The position numbers and the translations under genes were made by a program. A stretch of DNA of 32,914 nt, from the NCBI GenBank assembly GCA_011375345.1, contig DRLM01000052.1:1-32914 (forward strand), in the 5' to 3' direction. The DNA comes from Gammaproteobacteria bacterium (GTDB lineage: Bacteria; Pseudomonadota; Gammaproteobacteria; DRLM01). The notes under the pieces are model-generated. The model did not search any database, had not been told where the DNA came from, and saw only the letters and a program-made list of their open reading frames with translations. Position 1 is the stretch's first letter. Each line of letters starts with the position of its first letter. Positions 26,045-32,146 of this stretch are shown one piece after another.

Positions 26045-27310
<1,266 letters not shown>

Positions 27311-27350: not shown

Positions 27351-27593
27351 CTAGCTGGATTGTGCCTGCTCCCATTGCTCGCGGGTATAGGTGCGCATAG
27401 ACAGCGCGTGGATATCGCCACCCATTTTGTCACCCAGCGTGGCATAGACCATTTTGTGCTGCTGCAACATGGTTTTGCCGGCAAAGTCGTCGTGGATGAT
27501 TTGCGCCTCGAAGTGGCGGCCGTCACCGGTGATGTGCACCTCGGCCCCGGGAAGGCCGGTTACGATCATGCGTTTGATATCGTCGACTAACAT
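27351..27593 (-). CDS. ibaG: BolA-family protein, IbaG type
   Basis: An 80-residue class II KH-like protein of the BolA family. VTGLPGAEVHITGDGRHFEAQIIHDDF and the helix KTMLQQHKMVYATLGD, followed by IHALSMRTYTREQW, fit IbaG, thought to work with monothiol glutaredoxins in Fe-S or envelope homeostasis. The conserved His in QQHKMVY is a candidate cluster ligand. The ATG at 27591-27593 is chosen over a long upstream frame through the spacer. Its place between mlaB and murA matches the Pseudomonas and E. coli order. Confidence 0.94.
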   Translation of the reverse strand: MLVDDIKRMIVTGLPGAEVHITGDGRHFEAQIIHDDFAGKTMLQQHKMVYATLGDKMGGDIHALSMRTYTREQWEQAQSS

Positions 27594-27666
27594 TTGAACC
27601 ACCGTCAAAGAACCCGGCGTTGCAAGCGGGAAAGGGGGCACAGGATACCTGCTTATGGCTTTTTTT

Positions 27667-28044
27667 TTAACCCTGGCGGGTTTCGGCCGCGGGCGGAGCG
27701 CCACACCCCGGGGAGGCGGCTGCCGGTGCCGGCGCCGCTTCTATGTCCAGGGACAGTATTTTCTCCACCCCCGCCACCCGGGCGATGGCCAGCACCTGCG
27801 CCGGAACGGCGACGAAACGCACGCCCCCCCCGGCGGCGCGCGCCGCGCGCAGACACTCCAGCATCAGCGCCACGGCGGCGCTGTCGGCGCGCTCCACCCC
27901 CGCCAGATCGAGAGTGGTGACGCCGGCGGTCGTCACCGCCTGCGCAAGGCGGGGCCAAAGTGCGGGAACACTGTGGAACGTGACCGCGCCGCACAAGCGC
28001 ACACGCCCATTGTCCAGTGCCTCGATCCGGGCCTCCTCAGCCAC
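27667..28044 (-). CDS. mlaB: STAS-domain protein MlaB
   Basis: A STAS-domain cytoplasmic subunit of the MlaFEDB phospholipid ABC transporter, about 125 residues. The fold is visible in VRLCGAVTFHSVPALWPRL, then VTTLDLAGVERADSAAVALMLECLRAARAAGG, with DSAAV at the conserved loop near the MlaF contact, and FVAVPAQVLAIARVAGVEKIL. An Ala/Pro tail follows. The GTG at 28044 is chosen because it overlaps the mlaC stop as hisC overlaps hisD; a GTG at 28059 is also possible. Identity relies mostly on position, as STAS sequences are weakly conserved. Confidence 0.87.
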   Translation of the reverse strand: MAEEARIEALDNGRVRLCGAVTFHSVPALWPRLAQAVTTAGVTTLDLAGVERADSAAVALMLECLRAARAAGGGVRFVAVPAQVLAIARVAGVEKILSLDIEAAPAPAAASPGCGAPPAAETRQG

Positions 28045-28654
28045 CGCGGCCGCTTTCACGCTGGTTGCGGTCCGCGAGATCAGCGATCAGTTTGTCCAGC
28101 CCCCCACGGCGCACCTCGCTGGCGAAAGTGCTGCGGTAATTGGTCACCAGGCTGACGCCGTCTATGACCACATCGAACACTTTCCAGCTGCCGCCCTGCA
28201 AATACAGGGAGTAATCAATGGGAATGGGAAACCCACCGGCCTGCTCCACCTCGGTGCGCACGGTCACTTCTTCCGCACCCGGCCTGCGGCGCAAGGGCAG
28301 GTACTCGATCTTGTTGTCTGTGTACTCGGCCAGGGATTTGGCATAGGTCCGCACCAACAGGCTGCGAAACTCGGCCACGAAGCGGCGTCGCTGCTGCGGG
28401 CTGGCGCGACGCCAGTATTTGCCCAGCACCCAGCGCGACATGCGCTCGAAGTCAAAATGAGGCAGGACGATTTCGTTCACCAGCTGGTAGAGCCGCCGGG
28501 GATTGTTGTCGATGGCGGCACGTTCCTCCCGCACCTTGCCCAGAATCTCCTCGGACGTTTTCTGCACCAGTTCCAGCGGATCCTGCACGGCCGCCGCCAC
28601 ACCGCCGGCCCAGGCCAGGGTCAGGACCATCACAGCCGCCCAGGTTTGTTTCAT
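28037..28654 (-). CDS. mlaC: Periplasmic phospholipid-binding protein MlaC
   Basis: A 205-residue periplasmic protein with a signal peptide ending near GGVAAAVQDP. It carries lipid between the outer-membrane MlaA complex and inner-membrane MlaFEDB. Family runs are VNEIVLPHFDFERMSRWVLGKYWR, FVAEFRSLLVRTYAKSLAEY and DGVSLVTNYRSTFASEVRRGGLDKLI. Its ATG overlaps the stop of the TolC-like gene by 4 nt (ATGA), coupling the two. No mlaA gene is in the window. Confidence 0.95.
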   Translation of the reverse strand: MKQTWAAVMVLTLAWAGGVAAAVQDPLELVQKTSEEILGKVREERAAIDNNPRRLYQLVNEIVLPHFDFERMSRWVLGKYWRRASPQQRRRFVAEFRSLLVRTYAKSLAEYTDNKIEYLPLRRRPGAEEVTVRTEVEQAGGFPIPIDYSLYLQGGSWKVFDVVIDGVSLVTNYRSTFASEVRRGGLDKLIADLADRNQRESGRGG

Positions 28655-30015
28655 CGTTGCTCTCCAAGAGGGTCCGCGCCGATGGCGCGTTTGAGCTGCG
28701 CCACCTGCATGTTGTAGTCGTACACGGTTTTCAGATAATCACTGTGGGCCAGAACATAGCCTTGAAAAGCGGTCACCACCTTGCTCGCCTCCTCCAGGCC
28801 TGCCTCGAAATCCACAAAGCTGGCGATCATCCAGCGCCGCGCTGAGCGGCTGGCATCTTCCATGGCCGCCACCGCCTGTCTCCCCGCCGCAGCCTGGTGA
28901 TAGGCCTCAGCAACCTGATAGGGTATGCCCTGGCGGGCCAGGGCGGCCTTGGCGATCATGGCATTGAGTTCCGCCTCCGCCCGCGCCACCCGCGCCGCCT
29001 GCACACCGTGACCCCACTGCCATTGCAGTCCCACCATGGGGGTGGCGCCGTAGTCGTTGAAGGGGTCGGTAATATGGGGGTTGTCCACCTTGTCGCGGTT
29101 GGGCGAATAAGACACCAGACCCGCCACCCCGGCGTAGAGACTGGGCCTGGCATCCGCCTTTTTGGCAGCCACCAGCTCACGCCGCGCGGTGAGACCCGCC
29201 GCGACTTGCGCCATTTCCGGGCGTTGTTGCAGCGCCCGCTGCTTGAGTTCCGCCAGGCCCTGCTGCGGCAACGGTACGGGCCGCAGCCGGGAATCGGCCA
29301 CTTCCAGGGGCTGATCCTGAGCCGCGCCGGTCAACACTTTGAGACTGGCGAGCGCCACGTGTTCCAGGCCCTCGGCCTGAAAGAGGTAACGCCGGACCAG
29401 GGCGGCACCGGCATCCAGGGCGTACAAATCAGACTGGCGCACCCCTCCCTCGCCCTGATCCAGCCACTCCCGGGTCAGGTCGCGGGCGGCGTCCAGCCGT
29501 TTTTGCACATCGGTGAACAGCAAACGGGTGTCCCGCGCCGCAAGATAGCCGTAATATGCGCGTTGCACGTCCAGTGCGGTGCGGCTCCGGCGCAGGCGGA
29601 TGTCCTCCTGCTTGACGGCCAGATTGGCCTCGGCGGCCTGTGCGTAGTGCTCAATCTTGCCGAAAGTGTACAGGGGCTTGATCAAAGCGAGCTGGAAACG
29701 CAGCCACACCGAGGCGCCATGATTCTCGTAGCGGTCGCTGCGCAGCCGGCAGCTGCCCGCCTCGCAACTGCCCGCTTCGAACAGGCCCCCGCCCACGGCG
29801 GGCGACAGGCCCACGAAGGTGTTCAAATCCACCCGCAAGTCGCCGCTGGCCCGGGCCTCATCCACCCAGCTGCGGGCGGCCTCGGCCAGATGCACCACTT
29901 CGTCGATGCGCGGGTCGTGGTCCAGAGCACGGCTGATGGCCTCCTCCAGGGTGAGCGGCTCCGCGGCGGCGGTGCAGGTCATCAGGGTCAGACCGGCGAG
30001 GGCGGCGGCCTTCAT
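28651..30015 (-). CDS. TolC-family outer-membrane channel protein
   Basis: A 454-residue outer-membrane efflux-type protein. A signal peptide (MKAAALAGLTLMTCTAAAEP) is followed by LTLEEAISRALDHDPRI, the usual TolC start, and two long alpha-helical halves with heptad-like Ala/Glu/Arg content. FQLALIKPLYTFGKIEHYAQAAEANLAV is the TolC first-half signature, and a repeat of the pattern is near VGLQWQWGHG. A tandem EAGSC-EAGSC pentapeptide at about residues 80-89 adds two cysteines in a loop. It sits between mlaD and mlaC, overlapping both (TGATG and ATGA), so it belongs to the operon; this is unlike the enterobacterial mlaFEDCB. Start ATG 30013-30015, with a GGGGGG site. A GTG one codon earlier is possible. 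Confidence 0.9.
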   Translation of the reverse strand: MKAAALAGLTLMTCTAAAEPLTLEEAISRALDHDPRIDEVVHLAEAARSWVDEARASGDLRVDLNTFVGLSPAVGGGLFEAGSCEAGSCRLRSDRYENHGASVWLRFQLALIKPLYTFGKIEHYAQAAEANLAVKQEDIRLRRSRTALDVQRAYYGYLAARDTRLLFTDVQKRLDAARDLTREWLDQGEGGVRQSDLYALDAGAALVRRYLFQAEGLEHVALASLKVLTGAAQDQPLEVADSRLRPVPLPQQGLAELKQRALQQRPEMAQVAAGLTARRELVAAKKADARPSLYAGVAGLVSYSPNRDKVDNPHITDPFNDYGATPMVGLQWQWGHGVQAARVARAEAELNAMIAKAALARQGIPYQVAEAYHQAAAGRQAVAAMEDASRSARRWMIASFVDFEAGLEEASKVVTAFQGYVLAHSDYLKTVYDYNMQVAQLKRAIGADPLGEQR

Positions 30016-30485
30016 CACTGCCCCCCCTCGGCGGCCTTGCTGAACAACACCCGGCCGATCACTTGTTCCAGTATCAGCGCCGACTGCGACAGCCGGATAC
30101 GGTCCCCGTCCTTGAGGTAACGCTCCTCCCCGCCGGGCTCTATGCCCACATATTGTTCACCCAACAGGCCCGACGTGAATATGCTGGCGCTGGAATCAGC
30201 GGGAATCCGGCGGTAGCGCTGCGAGACGTTCAGGGTCACCACTGCTTCATAGCTTTCATCGTCATAGGTGATGTCAGTCACGCGACCGACGCGTACGCCC
30301 CCCATGGTCACCGGAGAGCGCACTTTCAAACCGCCGATGTTGTCAAAGCGGACGGTGAGTTCATAACCTTGTTGATGAGTCAGCGCGGTGATGTTGCTGA
30401 CTTTCATCGCCAGCACGAACAAGGCCGCCAGACCCGCGGCAACGAACAGACCGACAGCGATTTCCAAGCGGGTGGAGTTCTTCAT
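30015..30485 (-). CDS. mlaD: MCE-domain inner-membrane protein MlaD
   Basis: A 156-residue single-pass protein: a helix (LEIAVGLFVAAGLAALFVLAM) then one MCE domain (about residues 39-115) with YELTVRFDNIGGLKVRSPVTMGGVRVGRVTDI, ending in a helical region (ALILEQVIGRVLF). It should form the hexameric ring that accepts lipid over MlaE. The ATG at 30483-30485 has an AGG site 6 nt upstream; the TTG at 30501-30503, overlapping the mlaE stop, is the alternative. One MCE domain excludes the multi-MCE PqiB/LetB proteins. Confidence 0.95.
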   Translation of the reverse strand: MKNSTRLEIAVGLFVAAGLAALFVLAMKVSNITALTHQQGYELTVRFDNIGGLKVRSPVTMGGVRVGRVTDITYDDESYEAVVTLNVSQRYRRIPADSSASIFTSGLLGEQYVGIEPGGEERYLKDGDRIRLSQSALILEQVIGRVLFSKAAEGGQ

Positions 30486-30499
30486 TTTCAGCCTGACTT

Positions 30500-31279
30500 T
30501 CAAACCTCGTTGAACATGAGCGCGGTCAAAACGAAATCCAGGCCCAGCACCGCCAAAGCGGTGTGCACCACCGTCCGGGTGGTGGCGCGGCTGACCCCTT
30601 CGGAGGTGGGCACGGTGTCATAGCCTTCAAACACGGCAATCCAGGTCCCGACAAAACCGAACACCACGCTTTTGATCATGCCGTTGACGATATCGTCGTA
30701 AAAATCGACTTTGTTTTGCATCTGCGACCAAAAGGCGCCCGAGTCCACCCCCAGCAACCCGACGCCCACAAAGTAACCACCCAACACGCCCACCGCAATG
30801 AAAATGGCTGCCAGCAAGGGCATGGCGATGAGGCCCGCCGCGAAGCGCGGGGCGATCACCCGGCGCAGCGGATCCACCGCCATCATCTCCATGCCGGACA
30901 GTTGCTCGGTGGCTTTCATCAAACCGATTTCCGCGGTGAGCGCCGAACCGGCCCGCCCGCCGTATAACAAGGCGGCCACCACCGGCCCCAGTTCCCGCAC
31001 CAGCGACAGCGCCACCATCACCCCCAGGGACTCTTCGGCGCCGAAGTCCACCAGAATATTGTAGCCCTGCAGCCCCATCACCATGCCCACAAACAAGCCG
31101 GACACGACAATGATCACCAGGGACAACACGCCCACCGCATAGACTTGTTGCACCACCAGGGACAGGCGGAAAACCAAGCCGGGCAGACCCAGCACGATCT
31201 GCAAAAGAAAGAGATGACCGCGGCCCAGGCGCTCGAACAGGGACAAGCCCCAGCGGCCCAGCTGTGCCAGCTTGTTCAT
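30500..31279 (-). CDS. mlaE: ABC transporter permease MlaE
   Basis: A 259-residue MlaE/Ttg2B-type permease with about five or six helices. Family runs are [61 protein letters not shown] and [18 protein letters not shown], the last being the typical cytoplasmic coupling loop to the ATPase. Within MlaFEDB it forms the lipid path. It starts 3 nt after the mlaF stop. Confidence 0.97.
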
Positions 31280-31282
31280 TAG

Positions 31283-32146
31283 TTATTGCCGCTCCGCCAA
31301 CAGGTCTTGGGCGTAGTCGGGGGCCGGGTAGTGAAAGGGCACCGGACCGTCCGGCAGGCCGTTCATGAACTGCTCCACCCAGGCCGAGGCGCTGCGCCCC
31401 AGCGCCTCCGGCGTGCCGTGACTGATGACCTTGCCGCCGGCGATTATGTAAATATAGTCGGAGATGGCCGCGGTTTCTTGCACATCGTGGGAGACCACCA
31501 CGCTGGTCAGTGCCATGGCCTCGTTCAGATGATCAATGAGGGTGACGATGGCGGCTTTGGAAATGGGATCCAGGCCGGTGAACGGTTCATCGTACATGAT
31601 CATCATGGGATCCAGGGCAATGGCCCGGGCCAGGGCCACCCGCCGCGCCATGCCGCCCGACAGTTCGCTGGGGCTGAGGTCGCGGGCGCCACGCAAGCCC
31701 ACGGCGTGCAACTTCATCAACACCAAGTCACGAATCATGGCTGCCGGCAGCCGGGTGTGCTCACGCAGCGGAAAAGCGACATTGTCGAAGACGTTGATGT
31801 CAGTGAGCAGCGCACCGCTTTGAAACAACATGCCCATGCGTTTGCGCAACGCATACAACTCACGGCGGGGCAGCCGGTGCACCTCGCGGCCGTCCACTTT
31901 CACGGTGCCCGCATCGGGACGCAACTGACCGCCGATCAACTTGAGCAGGGTGGTTTTGCCCGTGCCACTGGGGCCCATGATGGCGGTGACCCTGCCCCGC
32001 GGGATGTCGATGTCCACACCGTCGAAAATCACCCGCCGGCCACGGCTGAAATGCAGGCCGCGTATCTCCACCACGTTGTCAGTTGCTGCCGCCGTCACCC
32101 CTGCTGAACCCCGATAGTACCGTTGTCTGCGACGCCCAAAATGCAT
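31283..32146 (-). CDS. mlaF: ABC transporter ATP-binding protein MlaF
   Basis: A 287-residue ATPase powering MlaFEDB. Walker A is GPSGTGKTT (about residue 58), the Q-loop lies in MLFQSGALLTD, the signature is LSGGM, Walker B is MIMYDEPFTGLDP and the switch His is in VVSHD. The C-terminal tail (FMNGLPDGPVPFHYPA) fits the MlaF extension. The start is uncertain. The first ATG would leave only about a 10-nt leader from the predicted promoter and lacks a ribosome-binding site; a GTG at 32098 (VTAAATDN) is an alternative, giving 271 residues. Confidence 0.94.
   Translation of the reverse strand: MHFGRRRQRYYRGSAGVTAAATDNVVEIRGLHFSRGRRVIFDGVDIDIPRGRVTAIMGPSGTGKTTLLKLIGGQLRPDAGTVKVDGREVHRLPRRELYALRKRMGMLFQSGALLTDINVFDNVAFPLREHTRLPAAMIRDLVLMKLHAVGLRGARDLSPSELSGGMARRVALARAIALDPMMIMYDEPFTGLDPISKAAIVTLIDHLNEAMALTSVVVSHDVQETAAISDYIYIIAGGKVISHGTPEALGRSASAWVEQFMNGLPDGPVPFHYPAPDYAQDLLAERQ

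Follow-up and report, generated by a model that had tools for sequence, protein, structure and literature searches.

The Mla system of Escherichia coli comprises the MlaA-OmpC complex, MlaC and the MlaFEDB complex, and the direction of its transport is debated (PMC10212509). Two relatives of this system that lack MlaA have been described. In Veillonella parvula, a tolC homologue directly follows mlaEFD in an MlaEFD-TolC-TamB cluster that has neither MlaA nor MlaC, and MlaD is a long trans-envelope protein with its own barrel (PMC10665443). In that work, TolC features solely as a neighboring gene and as an outer-membrane control (PMC10665443). The Mpc system of Brucella, an Mla-Pqi chimera, has a different outer-membrane partner, a PqiC-like lipoprotein, and contains neither MlaC nor TolC (PMC12436622).

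The locus described here lies in a 32,914-nt window (the whole stretch of DNA that was analyzed). It has MlaF, MlaE, MlaD, MlaB, MlaC and the downstream ibaG-murA order in common with E. coli, but it lacks MlaA and carries a TolC-family gene, referred to here as mla-TolC, between mlaD and mlaC. V. parvula is the nearest precedent, with the same mlaEFD-tolC adjacency and absence of MlaA, whereas in the arrangement described here MlaD is short and MlaC is retained without exception. The system resembles Mpc in being an Mla relative with another outer-membrane partner in place of MlaA, but differs from it in having both TolC and MlaC. No description of a proteobacterial mlaD-tolC-mlaC arrangement was found in the literature searched, which is not in itself proof of novelty. 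The genes form a minus-strand operon in the order mlaF-mlaE-mlaD-TolC-mlaC-mlaB-bolA-murA, which, the TolC insert aside, matches the murA-ibaG-mlaB-mlaC-mlaD-mlaE-mlaF order of E. coli. The features of the locus are as follows:

31283..32146, minus strand: mlaF, ABC ATPase (Pfam ABC_tran; best NCBIfam match PRK11831 MlaF, 397 bits, below the model cut-off of 441)
30500..31279, minus strand: mlaE, permease (PF02405, 8.5e-72; NF033619 above cut-off)
30015..30503, minus strand: mlaD, short single-MCE form of 162 aa without a C-terminal extension (TIGR04430 above cut-off)
28651..30015, minus strand: mla-TolC, TolC-family outer-membrane channel from its ATG, between mlaD and mlaC (PF02321, 2e-30; conserved position)
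28651..30018, minus strand: mla-TolC from an alternative GTG start, 455 aa
29419..29463, minus strand: periplasmic tip 1 of mla-TolC, residues 186–200, where GEGGVRQSDLYA replaces the ordinary VGLVAITDV (joint alignment)
29056..29106, minus strand: extracellular loop 2 of mla-TolC, residues 305–321 counted from the GTG, with the family signature RDxLDNPYIxDPFN
28768..28839, minus strand: periplasmic tip 2 of mla-TolC, residues 394–417, where RRWMxxxxxDFEAGLExxDK replaces VGTRTxVDVL (joint alignment)
28037..28654, minus strand: mlaC, periplasmic lipid carrier, the sole MlaC in the genome (PF05494, 8.3e-62)
27667..28059, minus strand: mlaB, STAS protein (PF13466, 1.5e-18; NF033618 below cut-off)
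27351..27704, minus strand: bolA/ibaG-like gene, a conserved downstream neighbor as in E. coli (PF01722)
26045..27304, minus strand: murA, a conserved downstream neighbor (sequence reading and high identity to genes at the murA position of syntenic loci)

The Mla components MlaF, MlaE, MlaD, MlaC and MlaB are thus all encoded in one operon according to Pfam and NCBIfam, and no adaptor or pump gene was found in it. The window also contains hisG and hisD; these two names and that of murA come from sequence reading and synteny rather than from a family scan. The stop codon of mlaD (TGA, 30017–30015) overlaps the TolC start (ATG, 30015–30013) by 1 nt in the sequence TGATG, and the TolC stop codon overlaps the mlaC ATG by 4 nt (ATGA). 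Genome-wide, there is one MlaC, one MlaD and one MlaE, so mla-TolC belongs to the single Mla system that the cell possesses. Four TolC-family proteins are encoded in total, mla-TolC and three others, which leaves other TolC copies for ordinary export. No match to the MlaA family PF04333 was found across the whole 2.68-Mb assembly, which is 99% complete, and the same model does match control genomes.

The product of mla-TolC contains two stretches of the Pfam OEP family (PF02321, 2e-30), and it matches the NCBIfam TolC family TIGR01844 with 3.9e-19 and 69 bits, below the cut-off of 225. A sequence-only search of the PDB with the TolC profile gave no relative, so a comparison of folds was needed. 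The AlphaFold2 model (pLDDT 87.6, 43 sequences) aligned in VIA-align with E. coli TolC (1EK9) over 396 residues with a Z-score of 27.8, an rmsd of 3.2 and 17% identity. Z-scores of ~25–30 were obtained for 26 solved TolC/OprM-type entries; matches with Z below ~8 (ferritins, rhodopsins) were regarded as generic helix matches and ignored. A Foldseek search with an earlier model agreed with the TolC fold. Each protomer of the model has four strands (residues 62–73, 102–117, 293–304 and 322–332) and long coiled-coil helices. The whole fold is therefore shared with the TolC/OprM efflux and type I secretion factors at an identity of about 16–17%, but mla-TolC lacks their R367, D371 ring, VGL/VGT tips and adaptor gene, and has a loop 2 of fixed length.

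The sequence differences were apparent in a joint alignment of 93 mla-TolC and 16 ordinary TolC sequences. The diversity of the two sets is unequal (mean identity of 53% in a subset of the mla-TolC family and 40% among the ordinary proteins), and the contrast may in part reflect divergence. The VGL/VGT stretches, which we take to be the adaptor-docking motifs of TolC, are replaced in mla-TolC by a conserved pattern of QSDL and RRWM...DFEAGLE. The position of R367, a primary-gate residue that is arginine in 16 of 16 ordinary TolC proteins, is occupied by glutamate (E409) in 87% of the 93 mla-TolC sequences, and the position of D371, a residue of the acidic ring (D in 14 and E in 2 of the 16), by lysine or arginine (position 413) in 85%. 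R367 locks TolC (PMC8277102), and the docking motif on the side of the adaptor is the RLS motif (PMC3391258). The span of loop 2 is fixed in 92 of 93 mla-TolC sequences, compared with seven different lengths among the 16 ordinary proteins, and within it R308 is conserved in 100% and D318 in 98%. By analogy to the topology of TolC, this loop would lie outside the cell, and its fixed length and sequence suggest that it has a conserved function there. A role of mla-TolC in an ordinary efflux pump was rejected based on the missing gate and tip motifs and on the composition of the operon. In summary, mla-TolC belongs to the TolC fold family though not to its subgroup of ordinary efflux proteins, and the Mla system in which it is encoded has no MlaA.

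The arrangement is conserved well beyond this genome. A close mla-TolC orthologue is carried by 9 genomes among 56 relatives (with ~50–62% identity in the other eight), and the gene order is identical in the orthologous loci of every nearest relative in which the sequence reaches both flanks. In a named genome collection, 171 relatives were found; the 80 loci kept from them are gamma- and betaproteobacterial and include those of Thiobacillus thioparus DSM 505 and Sulfuriferula multivorans TTN. The same order was observed in 71 of the named loci; mlaC directly follows mla-TolC in 78 of the 78 in which the contig continues, and the next Mla gene upstream is mlaD in 73. In a class-wide sample of 369 Gammaproteobacteria genomes (the GTDB class, which includes the Betaproteobacteria), 45 genomes from 21 families carry mla-TolC, and all 20 further loci examined from other families in this sample have mlaF-E-D-TolC-mlaC. 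One exception, L188, contains two extra genes between mlaD and TolC, as does L095 from the same genome. The recurrence of the order across the nearest relatives, the 71 named loci and the 20 further ones indicates that the arrangement is not due to chance. The recognizable host names belong mostly to sulfur-oxidizer lineages, judging by record titles (Thiobacillus, Sulfuriferula, Hydrogenophilales, Chromatiales and Thiotrichaceae; L055–L134). A separate observation is that the TolC operons of Betaproteobacteria and of some Gammaproteobacteria contain a second ABC ATPase, a distant relative of MlaF, between mlaB and bolA (L041, L042 and Thiobacillus/Sulfuriferula loci such as L118 and L127).

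The presence of mla-TolC nearly excludes that of MlaA. Among the 56 relatives, MlaA is found in none of the nine genomes with the orthologue, and none of the 41 other relatives that have MlaA carries mla-TolC. In the class-wide sample, MlaC is present in 45 of 45 mla-TolC genomes and MlaA in only 4 of them, compared with 277 of the 297 MlaC-bearing genomes without mla-TolC (Fisher value of 4e-33, which treats genomes as independent and ignores their relatedness). Poor assembly was rejected as the reason for overlooking MlaA, as it is also absent from TolC genomes that consist of a single contig (G039, G322 and G415). Together with the genomes that have both proteins in the named set (9 of 50), the four in the class sample indicate that TolC is not always a replacement of MlaA. 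The nine named genomes fall among relatives without MlaA, which fits a period of overlap followed by repeated loss, in a tree that cannot separate gain from loss. In two genomes (G277 and G161), it is MlaA itself that fills the gap between mlaD and mlaC. Twenty MlaC-bearing genomes in the class-wide sample, such as G021 (97% complete), gave neither MlaA nor mla-TolC, owing either to assembly gaps or to a third outer-membrane partner. One genome from the same family as that of the window (G003, 83% complete) has MlaA and gave no match to MlaC, MlaD or mla-TolC.

An operon tree built from MurA, HisG, MlaE and MlaF contains 10 changes of TolC and 12 of MlaA; a tree based on MurA only had too weak a resolution. 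In ten independent closest pairs from the operon tree, MlaA changes opposite to TolC in seven and in the same direction in none. Five of the ten pairs are on well-supported branches (median p of 0.125), and the TolC-negative members were picked as MlaA-positive, which tilts the test. The survey bears out most of an earlier note on this DNA, which had described a TolC homologue between mlaD and mlaC with overlaps of 1–4 nt that is co-translated with its neighbors, and an absence of mlaA from the window: the sequence and the Pfam/NCBIfam neighbors confirm the former, mlaA is missing from the entire genome as well as from the window, and the linkage is conserved in 21 families. Two outcomes that the note had set as refuting, a lack of conserved linkage in relatives and the presence of a normal mlaA, were contradicted by the data. 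Similar arrangements, which the note thought possible in some other Proteobacteria, occur in at least 21 families; the novelty, rated as moderate, was underestimated, as the pattern is one of a swap of TolC for MlaA and not a local oddity.

The favored interpretation, which we consider probable, is that this Mla system has a TolC trimer as its outer-membrane part, in place of MlaA and its porin, with MlaC shuttling lipid between the trimer and MlaFEDB. The computed results that support it are the TolC fold, the co-translated slot, the near exclusion of MlaA, the retention of MlaC, the persistence of TolC-MlaC without MlaE, the loss of gate and tip motifs, and the fixed loop. Several of these concern the identity of the partner of TolC. 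Four genomes (G066, G085, G089 and G093; loci L075, L105, L109 and L117) keep the TolC-mlaC pair with its 4-nt overlap, with no mlaF, mlaE or mlaD beside the pair and no MlaE or MlaA genome-wide (MlaD was checked at the locus). The retention of the pair after the loss of MlaE and MlaA makes MlaC the likeliest direct partner. The pairwise distances of TolC and MlaC are correlated with an r of 0.86, the highest of ten gene pairs and above those of TolC with MlaD, MlaE or MurA. In MlaC proteins from TolC operons, E. coli position 144 tends to be F and position 169 tends to be D; F144 tracks TolC in six of the ten pairs and D169 in five, with none against in either case, although these are the best of ~200 positions and the values are uncorrected. 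Both are surface positions of MlaC, and the signal is no more than suggestive. Position 169 is near V171, which is a site of MlaC crosslinking to MlaA (PMC10719372), and in E. coli the surfaces of MlaC that bind MlaA and MlaD overlap (PMC10245069). A mirror case is provided by G007 and G030 (99–100% complete), which keep MlaA and MlaC and in which MlaD and MlaE were not found genome-wide, so the MlaA-MlaC pair may also function independently of the MCE transporter.

The earlier note had suggested that TolC may give the MCE transporter a direct route across the outer membrane, or serve as an accessory export route; its conserved membership in the Mla operon stands. A direct route of this kind would be a trans-envelope machine in which an MlaD hexamer is placed tip-to-tip on a TolC trimer, with the 6:3 symmetry of MacAB-TolC, and the ABC transporter exports lipid or some other hydrophobic cargo through TolC, with MlaC as an accessory. 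The symmetry of a hexamer and a trimer fits, TolC adjoins mlaD in nearly all loci and serves elsewhere as an export duct, and the direction of Mla transport is debated. However, the tail of MlaD is of equal length in TolC-type and MlaA-type genomes and so short that MlaD falls short of the outer membrane, which, given the known width of the periplasm, would leave the gap unbridged. A trans-envelope MlaD with a long helix and C-terminal barrel that acts without MlaC was rejected for the 162-residue, unextended protein, which occurs together with MlaC. Furthermore, the ordinary adaptor-facing tip motifs are lost, TolC-mlaC remains coupled where mlaE is gone, and in two rearranged loci (L095 and L099) TolC stays with mlaC and not with mlaD. 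We therefore consider docking of MlaD on TolC unlikely and less probable than shuttling by MlaC.

Both of these rearranged loci carry, immediately upstream of TolC-mlaC, a gene resembling 3-hydroxyisobutyrate dehydrogenase (L099:2543-3373 and L095:4037-4900), and mlaFED lies two genes off or elsewhere. One of the two loci also has a LysR gene between the dehydrogenase-like gene and mlaFED. Such neighborhoods, the survival of TolC-MlaC without MlaE, the nine named genomes that keep both MlaA and TolC, and the many sulfur-oxidizing hosts would fit a TolC-MlaC pathway with a separate function (e.g. to deliver or secrete a hydrophobic metabolite) that only shares the operon, in which case the loss of MlaA would reflect disuse of retrograde Mla transport. 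This is improbable, as mlaFED is intact beside TolC in most genomes, and most have a single MlaC, which must then also be the carrier for MlaFEDB wherever this complex occurs. It is very improbable that mla-TolC is an ordinary efflux outer-membrane factor fixed by chance in a conserved operon: TolC-family genes are common, with four in this genome alone, but the slot is kept in 21 families with coupled translation, near exclusion of MlaA, a family-specific tip and loop, and no adaptor or pump gene alongside.

In the mechanism that follows from replacement of MlaA by TolC, a TolC-type trimer would stand in for the MlaA-porin complex, and MlaC would dock at its basic periplasmic tip and exchange lipid with it there. 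At the inner membrane, MlaC would exchange lipid with the MlaD ring of MlaFEDB. The cargo is presumably phospholipid, the anionic headgroups of which might be favored by the basic ring at the tip (K/R413), and the conserved outer loop may act at the outer leaflet, from which lipid would have to pass the barrel. We are not aware of any route by which lipid passes through a TolC trimer or along it. Retrograde transport would be the most likely direction, because TolC fills the place of MlaA. Whether the trimer is itself the lipid port of the Mla system, taking up or delivering phospholipid of the outer leaflet and exchanging it with MlaC, we regard as an even proposition.

The exchange of MlaA for TolC in many environmental, often sulfur-oxidizing Gamma- and Betaproteobacteria suggests that a protein family otherwise associated with the export of drugs and toxins was recruited for the handling of membrane lipids. 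If true, this would give the TolC superfamily a lipid-transport function, widening the roles of TolC-like channels beyond drug and protein export, and would constitute a non-homologous replacement of MlaA that was repeated in Proteobacteria. It would also provide a likely function for a gene that family models label merely as an outer-membrane efflux protein. As both the outer-membrane end of Mla and the direction of lipid movement are contested, the swap of MlaA for a structurally unrelated channel, the anatomy of which is well known, offers a clean comparative test of the job required of the outer-membrane partner and of what MlaC recognizes.
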